A DNA stretch of 64,000 nucleotides from Antedon mediterranea. Its lineage: Eukaryota > Echinodermata > Crinoidea > Comatulida > Antedonidae. The stretch is taken from NCBI RefSeq assembly GCF_964355755.1, contig NC_092672.1:21138501-21202500 (forward strand), given 5' to 3'. Within the stretch, counting starts at the first letter, position 1. Every line of letters starts with the position of its first letter. Positions 3,104 to 30,581 of this stretch are shown piece after piece. The notes beneath the pieces are model-generated. The model did not search any database. It was given only the letters and a program-made list of their open reading frames with translations, and was not told where the DNA came from. The position numbers were made by a program, and so were the translations under genes.

Positions 3104-3590
3104 AAGTCAAGTCAAGTCAAGTCAAGTCAAGTATCATTTATTATCATTTGTTTTAGGAAAAACATAGAAATTCTGTTTGCTCTGTTGGCGGAGCACAATA
3201 TCCAACGGACACAACACGAACTCAAAAACAAAAACATTACAAAAAAAAAGTGTCTACATCATATTTAAGGGTCTAATAGATCCTGGAAAGAAACTATTTG
3301 TAAATCGTGCCTTATTGGCCTTAATAGAACGAAATCGCCGACCGCTGCGCATCAACTGGAACATACTAGAGGCCGGATGAAAATGATCATCTTTGATAGC
3401 CACTGCCTTTTTCAGAAGACGATCCGAAAATATGTTCTCCAAAGGCAGTTGTGTAGATCCAATTATACGCGATGCGGTCTTGACTATTCTATTTAGGTCA
3501 CGCTTTTCATTTTCGGTAGCGCTACCGAACCATACCGTTAAAGAATACGTTATTACACTCTCTATAACTGACCTATAGAAGGACGACATT
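3104..3590 (-). mobile_element. 5'-truncated LINE with CTTGA-repeat tail
   Basis: On the minus strand, 3589-3254 encodes the C-terminal end of a non-LTR reverse transcriptase protein of the L2/Rex1/CR1 group: FYRSVIESVITY near the start, then TVWFG, a run resembling RIVKTASRIIG, HPASSMFQLM, GRRFRSI and NSFFPGSIRPLN before the stop. A 3' UTR of about 120 bases follows and ends in five CTTGA units (3105-3131), the short tandem tail typical of this group. The 5' side is cut off at about 3590, so only the last part of the protein remains. It is a dead-on-arrival copy lying in the loop of the 307-bp inverted repeat. Confidence 0.85.
3254..3589 (-). pseudogene. LINE reverse transcriptase, C-terminal fragment
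   Basis: About 110 codons open on the minus strand. The segment lies downstream of the catalytic reverse-transcriptase core and corresponds to the conserved tail region of L2/Rex1-type ORF2 proteins (FYRS-IES--TY----WFG, then R--RIIG, HP----F-LM-SGRR-RSI, NSFFP). No YxDD motif or endonuclease remains, so it cannot act alone. The start codon is only the first Met in a truncated frame. The reading frame is intact up to its natural stop, suggesting a moderately young copy. Confidence 0.85.
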
Positions 3591-4146
3591 AACTACTAAT
3601 GCCTTGATTAATAATGGATTTATTCAATACCTAATTACATAGAGTTAGAAAATTACTGTTATCTTTTTTTTTATTTTATAATTGCATTATATTTGGTTTT
3701 ATAGTGCAACCTCTTTCAAGAGCGGTTATTAACTAACTAACCCTTGATCCCCACAGTGCCTCTCTGATAAAATATAATCTCAAACCAATCTATTGAAAAT
3801 GTAAAAACAAATCTGATAAACTCAACTAATGTTAAACTGATGATGCAATTTCTTGACTTAAGTTGTAGATTGTATACCTTCCAAGCCATGTATGATTGAC
3901 ATGATTTTAATCAAACATCTTTATTTTATTAATACTTTGTATGAACCTCATCTTATTCAATGTTCAAGTATTTTTAATAATTCCAAGTAAAAATACATTG
4001 TATTTTCACAAGACCTTAATCAGTCATTATTAGGGTTTACCTGAGGTACCTTGATACACCTTTATTGCTTTACCTAAAATGGTAATTTATGTTGGTTTGT
4101 AGTTCTAATCAACTATATGATAAAACAAAGACAACACTATGGTGTA
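3591..4146. other. Inverted-repeat loop, no gene
   Basis: AT-rich sequence between the LINE fragment and the SINE. The part at 3800-3885 resembles 1490-1575. No other feature seen. Confidence 0.4.
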
Positions 4147-4380
4147 AATTTTTTTTTTTTTTTTTTTATTCATACTCATCCAACAGCGAGTAACTCGCCA
4201 ATTACAGGATGGATAAACTATTTAATAATTTATCGTGCTTATAAACTAAGTCTCATTTGAGGCTTAGGGAGTGGAGTTGAAAGAGTCATGAGTTACAACC
4301 CTGCCCTAGGTCAGGATTGAACCCGGGACCTTGGGATTGGAAGGCAAGCACGTTAACCACCAAGCTACAGCTCCACTCCA
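4147..4380 (-). mobile_element. tRNA-derived SINE with LINE-type 3' tail
   Basis: Read on the minus strand from 4380 down, the head carries a pol III A box (TAGCTTGGTGG, 4357-4367) and a B box (GGTTCAATCC, 4314-4323) about 34 bases apart, in a tRNA-like context. A body of about 110 bases follows and then a 3' end with the hairpin GCGAGTTACTCGC (4186-4198) and a poly(A) tail (poly(T) on plus, 4149-4167). The last 57 bases before the tail match the 3' end of the LINE at 5244-5845 (about 85 per cent by eye). The internal promoter would drive pol III transcription, and the shared tail suggests mobilisation by that LINE family. Confidence 0.85.
4314..4367 (-). promoter_or_regulatory. SINE internal pol III promoter (A and B boxes)
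   Basis: A box at 4357-4367 and B box at 4314-4323 on the minus strand. The B box fits the GWTCRANNC core; the A box differs from TRGYNNANNGG at one position. Spacing is typical of tRNA genes, but the flanks do not close into a tRNA acceptor stem, so this is a SINE head and not a tRNA gene. Confidence 0.75.
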
Positions 4381-4388
4381 TGAATTGC

Positions 4389-4695
4389 AATAAATGATAT
4401 ACAGTATGTCAAAATGGTTATTATACCTGTAAACAATTAAGTAAAACTAAAACGTATACATTAGATAACTGGCTGCTGAATCAGACAATAAGCATTTCAA
4501 AAAACAACTTTGGCTTTTACTATTAATAAATAAATTAATGCATTCCAGGGGGCGGATCCAGGATTTTGTGAAAGAGGGGAAGGGGGCGCAACTGTAAAGA
4601 TTCACATAAACTCAGCCCAACCTTGGTTGAGGATGGGTTGAGGTACTAGCCTACTAAATGGTGACATTTTCCCCATAGGCCTATTAAAATCAATT
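4389..4695 (-). repeat. Right arm of the 307-bp inverted repeat
   Basis: Reverse complement of 2674-2980, same length, few mismatches. The match stops sharply on both sides. The 1.4 kb between the arms contains the LINE fragment and the SINE. Confidence 0.85.
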
Positions 4696-4974
4696 AGCAA
4701 TTTTACAGAATATATTGAATTGCCCTGGTTATCAGATAAAAGTGTTGGTCTTTTGTACAACAATTTGCATTCAACTATTGATAGAGAAGCATTATATATT
4801 TTAGATTTTTTTATTTCAGCATTACTCCGTAGACCTACTTGAATCTAGAATTAATATATTATTAATTGATAGAGGAGGCATTGGTTGAGGAAAGTGTTGA
4901 TAGATGAGACATTTATTTACTCAACATCATGTTCAGTACTTTTAGTCCTAGTACTGTATTTATATTGATTATTG
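4696..4974. other. Non-coding spacer
   Basis: AT-rich sequence between the inverted-repeat arm and the 81-bp minisatellite. Nothing recognised. Confidence 0.4.
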
Positions 4975-5227
4975 TCAAAATTAGAGGAAGGGATAGTATA
5001 TAGGTTGAGTTTAAAGCCACATCTACAGATGATCCTCTAATGGTGTGATGAGCTGTCAAATTAGAGGAAGGGATAGTATTTAGGTTGAGTTTAAAGCCAC
5101 AATCTGCAGATGATCCTCTAATGATGTGATGAGCTGTCAAATTAGAGGAAGGGATAGTATTTAGGTCGAGTTTAAAGCCACAATCTGCAGATGATCCCAA
5201 TTATTGCTTCATTCTGTGATGAGTTGT
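4975..5227. repeat. Minisatellite, about 81 bp x 3
   Basis: Three direct copies begin with TCAAATTAGAGGAAGGGATAG and contain GAGTTTAAAGCCACA and GCAGATGATCC. Copy 3 diverges after the GATGATCC phrase. A minus-strand open frame through the array is simply the repeat translated three times; I do not regard it as a gene. Confidence 0.9.
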
Positions 5228-5243
5228 CACACAAGTTTCTTTT

Positions 5244-5845
5244 TATTTTTTTATTTTTATTTTATTCAAACTCATTCAACAGCGGGAAACCCGCCCCTTA
5301 CAGAATGGAATAAACTATACCATATAAAAATATATAAAAATCTTAAAATCTAACAATACAAATTTATACAATTTTACTAATTTTATTACAAAAACAATAA
5401 TAACGGTCAAAAAAGAGATCAATAGAATTATCTTTAACAACACAATTATTAAAAAGAAGACAAATACGTGAAATAAATCCATTCTTGGTAACATTAACAC
5501 GACAATACGGCACATAAAGAAGATTACATTTGGAATTACGAGTACGACAACCAACAGCTTTAACATGAAAGGAAAACAAGGAGATAAAATTACAATTGAA
5601 ACGGGAATTCATACATTTATACAAAAACTGAAGATCGAACATAGAACGACGAGAGACAAGCGAAGGAAGAGAGACAGACAAAGGAGGACAGTGACAAGTA
5701 GAATACACAAAACGAACAAAACGATCTTGGACTCTTTGAAGACGGGTACTATGAACAGACGAAAACGAATTAGACACAACACTACAGTATTCAAGATGGG
5801 GACGGACAAGAGAAACATATAAATTTATTAAAGTATTAGAATTTT
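5244..5845 (-). mobile_element. 5'-truncated LINE sharing its 3' end with the SINE
   Basis: The minus strand from about 5845 to 5364 encodes the C-terminal part of a non-LTR reverse transcriptase protein. Upstream of the first possible start the frame already reads VRPHLEYCS, followed by RLQRVQDRFVRFV, RRSMFDLQFLYK and a cysteine-rich tail, the usual order in Jockey/L2/CR1-group proteins. The 3' UTR (5363-5262) ends in the hairpin GCGGGTTTCCCGC (5282-5294) and an A-rich AAATAAAAATA tail. It is truncated at about 5845, so endonuclease and catalytic core are missing. Confidence 0.85.
5364..5777 (-). pseudogene. LINE reverse transcriptase, C-terminal fragment
   Basis: About 137 codons, open to a natural stop; the frame continues upstream to about 5840 without a stop, so the apparent start is arbitrary. 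The segment RLQRVQDRFVRFV plus SRRSMFDLQFLYKC is diagnostic of the region after the reverse-transcriptase domain in non-LTR retrotransposons. No catalytic residues are present. Family assignment to the L2/CR1/Jockey assemblage rests on these motifs only. Confidence 0.85.
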
Positions 5846-5846
5846 T

Positions 5847-5897
5847 AAAACACCAGAAGAATTTTTAAAACACTAGAAAAAATTCTTCTGGTGTTTT
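5847..5897. repeat. Perfect 20-bp hairpin
   Basis: 5847-5866 and 5878-5897 are exact reverse complements (the arm reads AAAACACCAGAAGAATTTTT) around an 11-base spacer. It directly abuts the truncated 5' side of the LINE. It may be an insertion-associated inversion or a small palindromic element. Confidence 0.75.
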
Positions 5898-21479: not shown

Positions 21480-24400
21480 CTACATGTCTGAACGTTCGGT
21501 GCTCTTCATTAGCATGATCAACTTAGTAACCGGTTTCTTAGCATTGATACCATCTGCAAATCTTATGTCAACAATCCTAACAAGGTCATCTTTCCCTGGA
21601 TAAACTTTACTGACTTCTGCCATTTTCCAACTACCACGTTTCTTGTTCTCACCAATGACAAGTACTATGTCACCTTCCATTACATTCTCCATTGATTTCT
21701 GCCATTTAAGTCTTGGTGAGAGCTTATGGATACACTCCATCCATCGGTGCCAGAAACCATTCACCATAGAGTTACAAATTTCTCTCCGTTTTCTCAAATT
21801 TCCATGGAATTCTTCACACGGTACTTCCGGACACTGTAAATCACCTCTTCCAATCAGGAAATGATTAGGAGTTAATGGCGGGTGATCCAGGGGCGATGAT
21901 GACTTGGCTGTCAAAGGTCGACTATTGATAAGACCAGATATCTGACAGAACACCGTCTCCCATTCAACAAATGTTAGTCTATCAGCTTTCACCAACTGTC
22001 TCATGCCTTTCTTCACCTCTTGAACCATGCGCTCAACAGCTCCTTGGTGATGAGGTCCACCTGGTGGTCCAAATTTCCACTGCACATTATAACGTTGGCA
22101 TTGTTCTCGTATCTTCGTCTGGTCTAGTCTCAAATTCAACTCATTTATTGTATTGTCAGCCCCTCTGAAACATGTGCCATTGTCACTCACCAACAAAGAT
22201 GGTGCTCCTCTGATGCTTACAAATCGTTCCATTGCTTGTAGGAACGCTTGGGTAGTAAGATCTTGGACACAGGTTAAGTGTACAGCTCTAGTCACGGCAC
22301 ACGTAAAAACTGCACAATATCCTTTTGTGGTGGTATTTTTGTTCAGTTTAACGTTAACTGGGCCCAGATAGTCTACGAGTGTGGAACTAAATGGCGGTGA
22401 GCATGGTTTCACTCGGAAGTCTGGTAGGTCAGCCATCTTCTGCTCTATTGGCTTCCCTTTGTGTCTCCTACAAATAGTACATTGTCGTACAACTGTTTTT
22501 GAGATATTGGTATCCCCAATAATCCAAAACTTCTTTCTTACCTCTGATGCGGTTCTCCGGTGGCCCCCATGTAAAGAGTGTCTGTGTCTATCCCGAACAA
22601 TCAGTAAACTGATATGGCTTCCCTTCGGTAGTATGTAAGGGTGTCTTATGTCATACGACAGTGGTGCATTCTTAATCCGTCCACCAACACGGTACACTCC
22701 TTCTTTCTCATCGAAGACTGGATCTAGCTTCATGATGTTGTGATCATTGAAATTTATCTCAGCTTGTCCCTGTCGGATCCAAAGCAACTCAGCTTCCTTC
22801 AATGCATGTGGTGAAGGCCACTCAGAAATTTGTGAAGTTAACTTCTTTAACCATTGGTTCTTTGGTAACTGCTTTAAGGACACAACTCTTGCTGTGACCA
22901 TCTTAAGTTTTGGCCAACTAGAAAACTTGGTGGGATCAAGTATTCTTTCAAATTCAGGGATAGCCTTTATTTTGAGTGTTAGTGTCTTAGCATTACGGAC
23001 ATGGAATTTCTTTTGTTCTCCATCTTCAGAAGCTACTTGAACATTTGTCGGAGTTTTAGGCCAAGAGATTGGTGGTGATCGTAGGAACCCTGGTCCATCG
23101 ATGACTTTCTTCATATCGTCAATGTTTCCTCCTCTTGAAACAATATATATAGTGTTCTGGTCTGATGGTACAAAGGCAATATCTTTGATCGGGTCAAATT
23201 CAGAAGTGATCTCACCTACACGGTATGCAACATACGATCGGAAAGATTTAGATTGACCTCTCAGCCAACTGATGACAGTCATACTGTCTGTCCAAATCTT
23301 TGAATAAACTATGTCAAACCTCAAAGCATTCTTTACAGTGAGCATCAGCCTTGAAAGCAGCAGAATTGCTTGAAGTTCTTTCCTGGGGATGCTTGATTGT
23401 TTAAGTGGTGTGAGTCTGGCTCGGGCGCACACAAACGACAAATAAGCTTCAGTTGACTCTTCATGTGACCACCTTAGCCAAACTCCGATACCCATAGCAT
23501 CTTCTGAAGCATCACTTGCACCATGCAGAGATACTTTTGGTAATGGTCTTTTTCCTCTAAATGGCTCTGGAATAAGACATCTTGGAATTTCTATGTCACT
23601 TGCTTTTTCAAGGTCTTTATTGATTTCACTGAGAATAGCACAAAGTTCACCTCTCTGGTTAAGTGGTGTATCCCAATCAATGTTTAGTTGCCACAGTTTT
23701 TGTAACAGTGTTTTCGGTCGGACAAGGATACCGGAAAGCATACCGAATACGTCATAGTAAGAAGCGGTTTGTTTCAGAATGCTACGTTTAGTTGGGATTA
23801 GACCTTGAATTAGTTTAACCTCTTTGACCTTTAGAGTGTCGTTCACAAGGTCCCACTTTGTTCCCAAAGCTGTTGCAGCAGTGGCGTCTTCTGATTCATC
23901 ACACATATTCCTAACATTGGATTGCCATTTCCTGATATTGAAGTTTCCTTTCTTCAGAGTCTCAATGAGTTTAGACTTTAAGTTGTCGGCCTCATTAGCA
24001 TCAGTAACAGATTCATTCAAATCATCCATGTAAAACTGGTCAGTAACAATTCTTTCTAATTGTTTATCACCGGGTGCATGCTCAGATACTATATGCCTCA
24101 AAGTCACAATAGCCGCAGTTGGTGATGGCTTGTCACCAAATGTAACAGTCGTCAACTCGTACACTTGAATTGGATGGTTAGGATTCTCTCTGAACACAAA
24201 TCGATGAAAGCGGGCATCATCAGAACTGATTTTAATAGCCTGGAACATCTTACTAATGTCGGCAATTATACCAACTTCGTTTTCTCGGAATCGTAGGGCA
24301 ACATCAAAAAGATCTGTATTAACATTTTCTCCTTTATATAAATAATCATTAAGAGAATGGCCTTGAAATCTTGCCTTCCCATCATATACCACTCTCACAG

Positions 24401-25112
24401 GTGTTGTTTTAGATTCTTTGGTTACGGCAAAGTGTGGTAAAAACCACATCTTCCTTCCAGCCTCTCTATCTCTTTGTAGCTCTGCTTCTGTCACTCGACG
24501 AGAGACACCTCTTTTCAGTTGATCTCTCATTTGTTCGCAATACACTTCCCATTCTATGCTTCTATTCTCAAATTGCTTTTCTAGGCTCTTCAGTCTCTTC
24601 ACAGCATACCCATAGTTATCTGGAAGGTCATTTGGTGCCCTTTTCCAAGGCAATCTAATTTCATAAGTTCCATTTGGCAGTTGTTTCACACTCTGATCAA
24701 TTGCTTCCGTTGCCTTGCGGTTTGTAAGATGTTCGGAGCATTTGCACTTCTTTGGTTCTAAACCCATTGTCTCAATGCCAAGAAAATCTTCCATTGGTCC
24801 AACGGCAGACACATTAACATAGTTGAAGAGTGCTGATGTGGTGAGTTGTCCTCCTTGGATAAACCATCCAAAAGGACATTTCACGGCTACAGGTTCATTG
24901 ATACATTCACCTCGGAGGTACTCTTCCCAAATCATTAAGTGTGTGTTATCGACACCAAGCAGTACATCAATAGTTGGGTATGGAGCAACTTGTAAATCAA
25001 TTTCATTTAGATGACTGTATTGTTTAAGCTGTTCTTTGTATACTATAGGAGCATCTCCGCAGGGTTCGTCTATTTCTGTGACGGTGAGTGGACAAGGAAG
25101 ACCATGTACCAT
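21480..25112 (-). CDS. pol: BEL/Pao Pol polyprotein
   Basis: 1210 codons. Residues 1-110 look like the C-terminal part of the retropepsin-like domain (PTIDVLLGVDN). Reverse transcriptase spans about 220-430, with YDGKAR near 243, D284 in IIADISKMF and the catalytic YMDD at 361-364. RNase H spans about 525-660 with D534, E579 and D609 in place, but the segment expected to read NPAD reads NTIY at 653-656, so the last carboxylate is a tyrosine. Integrase follows: H848, H851, C878, C881 zinc finger; D914, D977 and E1027 (SDNGT and HHQGAVER). A C-terminal GDIVLV domain closes it. The Met at 25112 is only the first after two in-frame stops; Pol was probably translated from Gag in one frame. Confidence 0.95.
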   Translation of the reverse strand: MVHGLPCPLTVTEIDEPCGDAPIVYKEQLKQYSHLNEIDLQVAPYPTIDVLLGVDNTHLMIWEEYLRGECINEPVAVKCPFGWFIQGGQLTTSALFNYVNVSAVGPMEDFLGIETMGLEPKKCKCSEHLTNRKATEAIDQSVKQLPNGTYEIRLPWKRAPNDLPDNYGYAVKRLKSLEKQFENRSIEWEVYCEQMRDQLKRGVSRRVTEAELQRDREAGRKMWFLPHFAVTKESKTTPVRVVYDGKARFQGHSLNDYLYKGENVNTDLFDVALRFRENEVGIIADISKMFQAIKISSDDARFHRFVFRENPNHPIQVYELTTVTFGDKPSPTAAIVTLRHIVSEHAPGDKQLERIVTDQFYMDDLNESVTDANEADNLKSKLIETLKKGNFNIRKWQSNVRNMCDESEDATAATALGTKWDLVNDTLKVKEVKLIQGLIPTKRSILKQTASYYDVFGMLSGILVRPKTLLQKLWQLNIDWDTPLNQRGELCAILSEINKDLEKASDIEIPRCLIPEPFRGKRPLPKVSLHGASDASEDAMGIGVWLRWSHEESTEAYLSFVCARARLTPLKQSSIPRKELQAILLLSRLMLTVKNALRFDIVYSKIWTDSMTVISWLRGQSKSFRSYVAYRVGEITSEFDPIKDIAFVPSDQNTIYIVSRGGNIDDMKKVIDGPGFLRSPPISWPKTPTNVQVASEDGEQKKFHVRNAKTLTLKIKAIPEFERILDPTKFSSWPKLKMVTARVVSLKQLPKNQWLKKLTSQISEWPSPHALKEAELLWIRQGQAEINFNDHNIMKLDPVFDEKEGVYRVGGRIKNAPLSYDIRHPYILPKGSHISLLIVRDRHRHSLHGGHRRTASEVRKKFWIIGDTNISKTVVRQCTICRRHKGKPIEQKMADLPDFRVKPCSPPFSSTLVDYLGPVNVKLNKNTTTKGYCAVFTCAVTRAVHLTCVQDLTTQAFLQAMERFVSIRGAPSLLVSDNGTCFRGADNTINELNLRLDQTKIREQCQRYNVQWKFGPPGGPHHQGAVERMVQEVKKGMRQLVKADRLTFVEWETVFCQISGLINSRPLTAKSSSPLDHPPLTPNHFLIGRGDLQCPEVPCEEFHGNLRKRREICNSMVNGFWHRWMECIHKLSPRLKWQKSMENVMEGDIVLVIGENKKRGSWKMAEVSKVYPGKDDLVRIVDIRFADGINAKKPVTKLIMLMKSTERSDM
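23145..23153 (-). other. Altered RNase H active-site codons
   Basis: Codons for Pol residues 654-656 read ACT ATA TAT (T I Y), where BEL/Pao proteins usually have P A D before the SRG motif, which is kept here (VSRGG). Three consecutive changed residues including the catalytic aspartate are unlikely to be tolerated. Confidence 0.55.
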
Positions 25113-25136
25113 TTACGTCTTCAATGTAGCAATTCA
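25113..25136 (-). other. Two in-frame stops between Gag-protease and Pol
   Basis: TGA at 25134-25136 and TAA at 25113-25115 are in the same reading frame as both flanking open frames, separated by six sense codons (I A T L K T). BEL/Pao elements normally have one continuous frame here. Point mutations are the simplest reading; stop readthrough is an alternative that two successive stops make less likely. Confidence 0.8.
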
Positions 25137-26759
25137 GCAATCGTAGTTTCTTAGTAATTTCTTACCACCAACCAGACTCAGATCGTGTTTTTGATAAACA
25201 TCTTGATTAGTAAGTGGAATGAGTCCCGATCGCAGAAGTGTCGCTTGGCTTCCACCATCCAATAAGATACGCACTAGACGGCGGGTTTTGCCACATCTCA
25301 GGTACCCCATAACAGTAGGTAAAGTCACTTGTAATTTACTTTCTCCATTGTTGGTGACCATGCCTGCCTGCTTAACAACTGTGGTTGGATCCGCTGGTTG
25401 AAATGGTTGAGCATTGCAATTAAGATTGGGTTGATCCTTTTTTTCATACAAGACAGGACAAACAGCCGGAAAGTGAAGGTTACTTCCACAAGATGGAGTT
25501 CCACAAGGTGCGGCAAATTGACAGGAATTCTTATCATATGGAGGTTTACCAGCAGAGCAATTGTTGTGACCACATCTAAAACAGATTCTGTTCTTTTTCA
25601 TCACTTCATATTTCTCCTTTTGAGACAAACTTCGAAACTTGTTACAACTCTTTAAGAAATGGGTATTCGCAGTTGGATGCAGTGCACACTCGGGATTTCT
25701 ATTGTAGTCTGACTTGTATCCTTCTGCAGATGACACTACAGCAGCATTTGAAGCCTTCTTTGACGATGAAGATGATTCAGTTTCAGTCATGGGCATAGCT
25801 TTCTCAAGTAACAATAATTGGCTGTACAGCCATTTAACCAAGCCAGTGAGAGAATGACCTGTGTCGTTGTCCCTAACGCTTTTATAGTAAGCTATTCTGT
25901 GTTCTTCTGGTAGCTTCTGTTTTATTTGGCTCAGCATGATTTTGCTGTTCAATTCTCCAGATAAACCAATGGTTTCCGCTCTGGTTTCAAACGTTTGAAG
26001 GGTTTGGACAAAACGACTCATGGCTGGAATGTTGATCTTGTCCTTACTTTCATAGGACTTTAAATTCTCTAGATCCTTCAACAGACTATCAACCACTCTG
26101 TCTTTGTCTCCGTAGCGTTCATCTAACACTTCCCAAGCTCTAGCCACATCGATACATCCTTTAACCATGTTTCTTTCTTTGCTGTTAATCATAGATTCAG
26201 TTAGCTGGTAGAAACATTCAATCTCAGTTAGATTAGTTGCACAATGTGTAAATAATTCTTTAAATCTTTTGTAATCCCGGATGTTGCCATTAAATGTAGG
26301 ATACTTCATCTTTGCCATGGTAGGCGTTGACCTTGCCATAGCAGGTCGAGGTGTAGGTGAACTGAATGCAGGCGGCGAGGCAACCGTACCAGCAGGCTGC
26401 GTTGAGGCTGATGTTTGAAGAGGAGTTGTTGGAGTTGAGAATGGTACATCGACTGTAGATTGTGAGTGGCGCAGGGTAATCTCCCGTTTTGCACATACCA
26501 ACCTTTGAAGGAAATCCATCTCACATTCTGACATCCATTTCTCTTCCGTATCAAATTCTCCCTGGTCTTCAATTACATCAATCAGTTCAGAGTGTTTTAA
26601 CTCAACTTTTCTGAACTGTTCCTCCGCCTTGATAATGTAAGTTTTTAAAACATCTGGTTCGCAATTTTCTTTAAGTAGTGATTCTATCATGGACAGAGTC
26701 CTTGTTAACTGACCTTTGCTGTTCCGTCTGGTAAGCTTCAGTTTGTTTAAGTCTGCCAT
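25134..26759 (-). CDS. gag: BEL/Pao Gag-protease
   Basis: The open frame begins at 26822 inside the 5' LTR; the better start is the Met at 26759 (MADLNKLKLTRR), 28 bases inside the LTR border. From that 541-residue protein: an N-terminal helical, charged region; a Ser/Pro/Thr-rich linker (about 100-150); a capsid-like domain of the DUF1759 type starting at MKYPTFNGNIRDYKRFKELF; then a Cys/His region with CFRCGHNNCS and several further CxxC/H pairs, expected to bind RNA; and the start of a retropepsin with ILLDGGSQATLL. The active-site triplet reads D-G-G instead of the usual D-S/T-G. The protein stops within the protease; the rest of that domain opens the Pol frame. Confidence 0.9.
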   Translation of the reverse strand: MADLNKLKLTRRNSKGQLTRTLSMIESLLKENCEPDVLKTYIIKAEEQFRKVELKHSELIDVIEDQGEFDTEEKWMSECEMDFLQRLVCAKREITLRHSQSTVDVPFSTPTTPLQTSASTQPAGTVASPPAFSSPTPRPAMARSTPTMAKMKYPTFNGNIRDYKRFKELFTHCATNLTEIECFYQLTESMINSKERNMVKGCIDVARAWEVLDERYGDKDRVVDSLLKDLENLKSYESKDKINIPAMSRFVQTLQTFETRAETIGLSGELNSKIMLSQIKQKLPEEHRIAYYKSVRDNDTGHSLTGLVKWLYSQLLLLEKAMPMTETESSSSSKKASNAAVVSSAEGYKSDYNRNPECALHPTANTHFLKSCNKFRSLSQKEKYEVMKKNRICFRCGHNNCSAGKPPYDKNSCQFAAPCGTPSCGSNLHFPAVCPVLYEKKDQPNLNCNAQPFQPADPTTVVKQAGMVTNNGESKLQVTLPTVMGYLRCGKTRRLVRILLDGGSQATLLRSGLIPLTNQDVYQKHDLSLVGGKKLLRNYDC

Positions 26760-26786
26760 TGTAATTATTTCACTAGTTGTTGAAGC

Positions 26787-27309
26787 TGTTGTGGAATCGG
26801 TGAGAAATAATGAGGTGAACACGTTGTTGCAATATGTTGTCTTTATTAGATTTATTATTATTCAACAACTGTGTTGGGTTGTCTATAAGAACAAACAAAA
26901 TACACTAAGTAGATAGTTCTGTAGTCAACAAATACTTCGAAACATATGATAATAAAGAATAGTACGACTACCCCCTCTATAGTAATAGAAAGATGTAGAC
27001 ACTCGTACGCCGACTCGACTCAAAGTGATAACGTCAAGCGAGGCCTAGATATATGAACTTTAACAACAATAAAATATCTAATTTTTAAAGGTGTACACAA
27101 CTCAAAGACTACCCTGCAGACTCCTGGCTAAACATATTAATAAACGATTCTAATTAAACTCACCCAAAGGGTTCCAAATAACAAATAAAGATGATTACAC
27201 AGCATGAATATCTCACACGATACCAAATTGTATATGATTTCGTTCAGCCTGCGTATTGTACGCGCACTGGCACGCAACTCACAAATTGAAAACAAATGAC
27301 GTCATGACA
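26787..27309 (-). repeat. BEL/Pao 5' LTR
   Basis: 523 bp, about 99 per cent identical to the LTR at 20810. On the minus strand it drives the element. CRE-like TGACGTCA lies at 27297-27304 and AATAAA at 26847-26842. The sequence following it, GCTTCAACAACTAG on the minus strand, does not show an obvious tRNA primer-binding site beginning with TGG. Confidence 0.95.
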
Positions 27310-29990: not shown

Positions 29991-30467
29991 TTTATTTGAT
30001 CATCATCAGGAATGATGATAAAATGTATTATTACTGGTCCTCAAGTTTAACTGGAAACTGAGGAAATTCGGATTAGGCCCTCCACGGACCCACGGCAGCC
30101 AGCAGTGCAGCGCCTACCAGATCAGCACACCGGGAGACGATCCCCTACTCTTTCCGAATAGTGTACCAAGTTCTTTAGCGTGCACTGTTAAGTACACGGG
30201 ACCAACGGCTTTACGTCCCATCCGAAGGACGAGGCAATGAGAGTAAAGCATCTTGCCTAAGGATGCAATTAGTATGGTACAGATAACCTCGAACCCATGC
30301 CTATCACATGCTAGTTCGATATTACCTTTCCACCATCACTCTCTGGTGTATATACAGCACCCGCCGCTATTTCTAGACGGTCTCCCATCCAGAACGCAAC
30401 CGGGCCCAACGTTGCTTAACTTCGGTGATCTGACGAGAACCGGTGTTTCAACGCAGTATGGCCGTAT
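29991..30467 (-). mobile_element. 5S-rRNA-derived SINE
   Basis: The minus strand starts with a 5S rRNA-like head of about 120 bases (30466-30346): TACGGCCATACTGCGTTGAA, then TTAAGCAACGTTGGGCCCGG, then GGATGGGAGACCG and GGGTGCTGTATATAC. These follow the 5S order including the box A, intermediate element and box C of the internal pol III promoter. A body of about 350 bases follows with GGTTCGAGGTTATCTG and ATGGGACGTAAAGCCGTTGG, resembling conserved central parts of metazoan SINEs. It ends near CTGATGATGATCAAATAAA. SINE3 is the class name for 5S-headed SINEs. Confidence 0.85.
30346..30466 (-). promoter_or_regulatory. 5S rRNA-like head with internal pol III promoter
   Basis: Retains GGATGGGAGACCG (minus strand, 30390-30378), the box C part, and TTAAGCAACG in the box A part. 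Several substitutions and the attached SINE body rule out a functional 5S rRNA gene. Confidence 0.75.
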
Positions 30468-30581
30468 AATTTGCACACCTGACTAAAGTCATGTATACGG
30501 CCTTGTTAATCATCTATTTAAATAATATTTACAACATAGTATAAAACTGACTCCAAATAACAATGATTCAACGTTTCAAAC
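30468..30581 (-). repeat. Direct repeat, right copy, beside the 5S-type SINE
   Basis: 114 bp, nearly the same as 29882-29990 apart from a few substitutions and a short indel near the AT-rich part. On the minus strand it lies immediately upstream of the 5S head. This looks like the tail of a preceding, otherwise lost SINE unit. Confidence 0.8.

Follow-up and report, generated by a model that had tools for sequence, protein, structure and literature searches.

The window analysed here is a 64,000-nucleotide stretch of the Antedon mediterranea genome (NC_092672.1, positions 21,138,501 to 21,202,500). It harbors a SINE and a LINE fragment on the minus strand; the sequences and coordinates that the initial annotation gave for both hold, with limits refined to about 4150-4379 and 5244-5856, respectively. 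The SINE, a copy of the type we call SINE-A (4150..4379), consists of a tRNA-like 5' part, a body, a 3' tail shared with the LINE, and poly(A). We call the 5' part tRNA-like on the basis of an A-box-like motif (TAGCTTGGTGG) and a B-box-like motif (GGTTCAATCC) read by eye, and no tRNA match was found in it by ARAGORN or Rfam. The LINE is a 5'-truncated copy of family F1 (5244..5856), containing the C-terminal end of the ORF, the 3' UTR, the shared tail and an A-rich repeat tail. Its upper limit was set by its longest relatives, which align from query base 10, i.e. window position 5856; the frame is open over 5364-5864 and homology begins at about 5856, hence the C-terminal reading frame is taken as 5364..5856 on the minus strand. 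As for the surroundings, one arm of a 313-base inverted repeat (2673-2985 and 4384-4696, 98% complementary, arms 1398 bases apart) begins beside the 5' end of the SINE, and tandem copies of about 81 bases, two of them 96% alike and a third diverged, lie just past the 3' end of the LINE at 4941-5182. Another LINE-like C-terminus, recognised by eye and with no Pfam match, is located at about 3105-3592 (minus strand) and is followed by (ACTTG)n in place of the shared tail, and two long minus-strand frames of 1210 and 575 amino acids at 21480-26861 resemble, by eye, a BEL/Pao-type LTR retroelement.

The common 3' end of the two elements was borne out by 64 ungapped nucleotides at 84% identity, A-rich ends included (4150-4213 versus 5246-5309); the local alignment score of the tails is 89, whereas 387 pieces drawn at random from the window reach 33 at most. 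In minus-strand orientation, the SINE ends in CATCC TGTAATTG GCGAG TTA CTCGC TGTT GGATG AGTATGAATAAA, and the LINE in CATTC TGTAAGGG GCGGG TTT CCCGC TGTT GAATG AGTTTGAATAAA. Both contain the 13-base hairpin described earlier, GCGAG-TTA-CTCGC at 4186..4198 in the SINE and GCGGG-TTT-CCCGC at 5282..5294 in the LINE, and the difference between the two stems is indeed a single compensated pair, A-T in the former and G-C in the latter. In addition, each hairpin is enclosed by an outer stem that had been overlooked, formed by CATCC (4207..4211) and GGATG (4177..4181) in the SINE, and by CATTC (5303..5307) and GAATG (5273..5277) in the LINE, where the single-sequence fold pairs four of the five bases of the 5' arm. 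The outer stems, too, differ by one compensated pair, which is C-G in the SINE and T-A in the LINE. The apical loop differs as well (TTA in the SINE, TTT in F1), and so does the spacer. Altogether, SINE-A and F1 differ at 10 of 46 anchored columns, and four of these differences make up the two fully compensated pairs, while one-sided stem differences number zero. When ten differences were placed at random, two double changes with no one-sided stem change arose with P = 0.003 (retention of pairing not being demanded), and at least two double changes, irrespective of single ones, with P = 0.053. Single-sequence fold energies are moderately below those of shuffles (z = -2.94, -2.40 and -1.22, the last for SINE-B, see below), and we did not use them as main evidence.

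We searched the whole genome (354 Mb in 18 contigs, eleven of them large) for further copies. The DNA search with SINE-A returned 2926 first-look candidates, among which 40 scored copies have 95-100% identity, and that with F1 returned 146 first-look candidates, of which 40 were scored (49 pieces listed), the best eleven matches being 95-100% identical. A tail pattern in which the hairpin and a single base in each arm of the outer stem are left free matched 295 times, compared with once for the reversed control; among the 100 matches listed, most have the inner stem of the LINE (GCGGG..CCCGC), of SINE-A (GCGAG..CTCGC) or of a variant that we call SINE-B (GCGGG..CTCGC). A looser pattern gave 840 matches versus 5 in controls, and among the 100 listed the inner stem mostly pairs, as judged by eye. 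None of the nine genomic matches to a pattern with another spacer length has the shared tail. In SINE-B the SINE body has diverged but the tail is the same, and the fourth inner pair, G.U, is in its letters an intermediate between G-C of the LINE and A-U of SINE-A. The stems of SINE-B differ from those of F1 by a double change and by a one-sided change from G-C to G.U (P = 0.057), a weaker result than that for SINE-A. Seven SINE-B copies are 97-100% identical to the copy L063. A further variant, SINE-C, is represented by one copy (L130) and has the same body as SINE-A at 89% identity. We ruled out that SINE-B is the 3' end of a LINE by testing 25 loci of SINE type, comprising L142-L149 and 17 from the range L061-L078. 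The 5' head is present in 19; of those without it, L067, L070, L071, L078 and L142 have SINE body preceding the tail, and in L065 (as the longer piece L138) the tail stands alone, without a LINE protein match. Target-site duplications of the 27 SINE insertions considered were not above control, a match of at least 7 nt occurring in one of them, located in a tandem repeat, and in 0.745 on average and 5 at most in the controls. The SINE-B copy L068 sits in a tandem repeat, and a clear target-site duplication is not visible by eye at its junctions.

A protein search with the LINE C-terminus detected related LINEs, 150 of the 1685 hits being scored. From such hits we hand-picked 40 distant LINE 3' ends for diversity, blind to their tails and including several copies of most families; the first 20 have 38-50% protein identity, and the further 20 came from the same search and one with family F8. 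The two-tier structure was found in 38 of the 40 (20/20 and 18/20), which represent nine tail types, F3-F11; the tail was not seen in the fetched pieces of L117 and L119, and some tails, such as those of L113, L115 and L121, are damaged. The element is laid out as an outer stem, a TGTWANNG-like spacer, the inner stem, TGTTGG-like letters and an A-rich repeat, and in most families it directly precedes AATAAA-like repeats. The apical loop varies from about 3 to 9 bases, and most families differ from each other in its length and letters. Conservation in the nine protein-found types is 97% for TGTT, 82% for the TGTWA side, 73% for stem columns and 57% outside; with F1 and F2 added, these values are 98%, 82%, 71% and 59%. 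We rely for the conservation of these letters on the nine protein-found types alone, since the patterns that found the other rows had fixed them: F7b, F12, SINE-C and a 5S SINE were found by a pattern fixing CCTGTTA and CTGTTGG, and the F2 row by one fixing TGTT.

Protein identity between the five LINE families with long open frames is 43-51%. Pfam matches to RVT_1 and Exo_endo_phos_2 were found in all five families scanned, F1 included, and no RNase H family matched any of the five proteins at E 0.001. CR1-type LINEs are defined by the presence of an APE-like endonuclease and a reverse transcriptase and the lack of RNase H, the combination found here in 5/5 proteins, and insertions of CR1-type LINEs have little or no target-site duplication. 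In all five families with long ORFs (L101-L106), a 2A-like DxExNPGP motif near the N-terminus precedes the endonuclease, and the N-terminal region is variable. Common to the five families is also a basic, aromatic segment between the endonuclease and the reverse transcriptase, beginning with PWFD (KWFD in F4). Zebrafish L2 proteins are reported to bind their own tail through the region between these two domains (PMC4176376), which the segment may resemble.

A tail of this kind also occurs on a SINE copy with a different head. In one fetched piece (L131, minus strand), a unit headed by a 5S rRNA match (Rfam, 58.7 bits) carries a tail that agrees with that of LINE F6 at 42 of 46 columns, so that this 5S SINE and F6 probably make up another SINE/LINE pair of the same architecture. 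The window itself contains another unit headed by a 5S rRNA match at about 29995-30469 on the minus strand (Rfam, 73.8 bits, 30349-30469), with an AATAAA-like stretch at its end; by appearance, this unit is a SINE of the 5S type bearing another tail.

For the covariation analysis, we aligned 12 of the 17 tail types using MAFFT; F9 was omitted as decayed, and F7b, F12, SINE-C and the 5S SINE were found later. RNAalifold recovered both stems from these 12 types unprompted (five outer pairs, and four inner pairs plus a G.U pair), and for 6 of the 10 consensus pairs at least one sequence has both bases changed. We limited the count to nine pairs, since this alignment has gaps in part of the F4 inner stem and misaligns the fifth inner pair in some rows; once the columns were anchored, that pair formed in 13 of 17 rows. 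Over these nine named pairs, 94.3% of cells are paired compared with 79.1% in shuffles, two-sided-change cells number 18 versus 5.6, and the covariation score is 0.493 versus 0.199, none of these values being reached in 500 shuffles; six pairs have a two-sided change versus 3.6 (7/500), and the number of further pair types (10 versus 8.7, 110/500) is not above chance. When the structure was slid by 1-3 columns, only 30-57% of cells paired and two-sided cells did not exceed 6. We then applied a null model in which substitutions are redistributed along a tree, the tree being built from the same columns and the ten pairs having been named after F1 and the SINE had been inspected. Across the 17 anchored tail types, 156 of 170 cells are paired versus a mean of 105 and a maximum of 133 (0/3000), and compensated branch changes amount to 9.0 versus 1.4, with a maximum of 6 (0/3000). 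However, no pair was significant in an R-scape-like, tree-corrected test of all pairs (best E 0.18 and 1.2; low power with 17 rows), though the two best of the 946 column pairs both lie in the structure. Covariation in the stem, for which the initial annotation had proposed a test, is seen against the shuffle and tree nulls but not in the all-pairs test. The proposed selection on RNA structure is well supported for the families, as pairing is kept over 17 tail types despite many two-sided changes.

Within families the picture is different. In 58 single copies (21 of 31 F1, 20 of 20 SINE-A and 17 of 18 SINE-B loci, the others differing in length or spacer), we counted 13 one-sided stem changes and no two-sided change, and one F1 copy, L028, is without the 3' arm of the hairpin. 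Hence the compensation that had been expected across genomic copies is absent from the single copies sampled and present between families and tail types. Since the sampled copies decay without compensation, compensation and selection are to be placed in the source elements, and it is well supported that RNA-structure selection acts at the level of families rather than of single copies.

We consider it highly probable that the shared tail is a selected two-tier RNA element used for the mobilisation of these SINEs and LINEs. According to this explanation, the element would comprise the outer stem, an internal loop (TGTWANNG / TGTT) and the inner hairpin, followed by the A-rich repeat, and would be carried at the 3' end of related LINEs that encode, where their ORFs were read, the 2A-like motif, endonuclease and reverse transcriptase. 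The LINE protein most likely recognises the tail and begins target-primed reverse transcription there, and the tail would give access to this machinery to one or more tRNA-like SINE lineages and probably also to a lineage with a 5S head, known from one copy. Mobilisation would take place in trans, with F1 or a close relative as the presumed partner of SINE-A. As the fold would have to persist in source elements, stem changes would survive mainly if compensated. Of this explanation, the sharing of the tail, its copy number, structure and covariation, the ORF domains, and the uncompensated decay of sampled copies are observed, while binding by the LINE protein, mobilisation in trans and the partnership of F1 or a close relative with this SINE are inferred. 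The tail is under RNA-structure selection, and a recognition site for the reverse transcriptase would be its simplest role.

The initial annotation suggested that the SINE is driven by this very LINE family. In its favor, the tails of SINE-A and SINE-B are nearest to F1 over the longer stretch, with alignment scores of 67 and 66, versus 52 and 48 to F7. On the other hand, the single SINE-C copy scores 68 to F7 and 42 to F1, and in the anchored columns SINE-A is nearly tied, matching F1 at 36 and F7 at 35 of 46. SINE-A matches SINE-C at 43 of 46 columns, so the SINE tails are nearer to each other than to any LINE tail compared. Moreover, the loop and spacer of the SINE are unlike those of F1, which counts against the explanation, as experiments on zebrafish L2 elements indicate that the apical loop matters for specificity (PMC4176376). 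The partner might instead be another LINE of the group, either one resembling F7 or a relative of F1 that is extinct or was not sampled and whose hairpin reads GCGRG-TTA-CTCGC, and the differences between the SINE and F1 would then record the partner's tail rather than a change inside the SINE; we regard this as a serious possibility, albeit the less probable one. A pattern admitting either outer-stem form after TTTATTCCA found the LINE form in 57 of 57 matches and the SINE form in none, and the SINE-type outer stem is likewise absent from the 40 F1/F2 ends read, both of which speak against such a partner. Neither with two dedicated patterns nor among the matches listed for the broader ones (100 of 295 and 100 of 840) did we find a LINE with the exact SINE tail. 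Besides the 57 LINE-type matches just mentioned, the two dedicated patterns returned three with an altered base ahead of the tail. We rejected these as LINEs, because L140 and L141 proved to be old copies of the SINE, and C3:3322530 falls within a SINE match already scored. One F1 copy, L139, carries the TTA apical loop of the SINE, which we read as a point change. Taken together, with SINE-A and SINE-B nearest to F1, SINE-C nearest to F7 and the SINE tails nearest to each other, F1 is the best candidate partner of the SINE, and a likely one, but not the sole candidate.

The role of the fold might also be another than recognition, such as transcript 3' end formation or stability, or the binding of a host protein. 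The position of the element immediately before AATAAA-like repeats in most families would fit such a role, and structural selection alone leaves the ligand unnamed. However, the tail is common to LINEs and to SINEs that differ in their 5' parts, and transcription of these elements presumably proceeds by different routes; moreover, in the stringent LINEs studied the LINE protein binds stem-loops at this place (PMC4176376); we therefore hold this alternative to be improbable. Still far less credible is mere shared ancestry, by which the tail would be a common fragment and its compensated changes coincidental. It is true that only two compensated pairs separate the two sequences in the window, and that the placement test disregarding single changes is borderline (P = 0.053), but the lack of any one-sided stem difference between SINE-A and F1 (P = 0.003), the group-wide covariation beyond both the shuffle and the tree nulls, and the exclusively one-sided changes in freely drifting sampled copies all argue against coincidence.

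Within the recognition explanation, the site contacted could conceivably be the internal loop between the stems (TGTWANNG / TGTT) and not the apical loop as in zebrafish L2, because TGTT/TGTWA is conserved above the stems and the apical loop is variable in length and letters. We put this forward as a tentative and rather doubtful idea, and slightly lowered our confidence in it because the apical loop is not free, TTT occurring within it in 9 of the 11 LINE tail types. If it were true, the role of the stems and the apical loop would largely be that of a scaffold. A cross-recognised tail could then be common to several LINE families and SINE lineages within one genome, and a switch of partner family would not require a SINE to acquire a new tail.

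The system has clear relatives in the literature. The protein of a stringent-type LINE is described as binding a 3' stem-loop and starting reverse transcription there, and SINEs with the same tail are copied in trans (PMC4176376, PMC3747384). Three characteristics of this type are found here, namely, a 3' tail beyond poly(A) common to SINE and LINE, a compensated stem-loop, and a LINE with endonuclease and reverse transcriptase. As in Antedon, a 3' stem-loop tail is common to the LINE and SINE of the eel pair UnaSINE1/UnaL2; in UnaL2 and in zebrafish ZfL2-1 and ZfL2-2 the stem-loop tail is needed for retrotransposition, and the eel and zebrafish LINEs, like those described here, encode endonuclease and reverse transcriptase (PMC4176376, PMC3747384). 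In contrast to these, the Antedon tails have two stacked stems flanking a conserved internal loop, and a variable apical loop. The sea urchin pairs SURF1/CR1-4_SP and SINE2-3_SP/CR1Y_SP consist of tRNA-derived SINEs and CR1-type LINEs (PMC3747384), a combination that the tRNA-like SINE and the candidate CR1-type LINE here resemble by description, and 2A-like motifs such as those of the LINEs here have been reported in sea urchin non-LTR retrotransposons (PMC4981915). The L1 and SINE tails of maize and sorghum likewise have about 50 related 3' nucleotides, a hairpin and compensatory stem mutations, but, as that account describes them, belong to L1-clade LINEs and have a single hairpin with a conserved UCU loop (PMC3747384). 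Hence SINE/LINE pairs with common hairpins and compensatory changes have already been published (PMC3747384, PMC4176376). In our literature search, no title or abstract found describes the present pair, and combined terms for compensation in SINE/LINE tails matched PMC3747384 solely. We therefore regard the pair as a new one of a known, stringent type, although the families may be catalogued elsewhere.

While the mechanism itself is familiar from other animals and plants, the informative relatives around this pair are unusual. A single genome contains about a dozen tail types of one RNA architecture, carried by LINEs and by at least one, probably two, SINE lineages, and across these tail types the fourth stem pair occurs as G-C, G.U, A-U and U-A. 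The tail types form a natural series in which to study how a LINE protein might change along with its RNA tail, and whether a SINE could exchange its partner.
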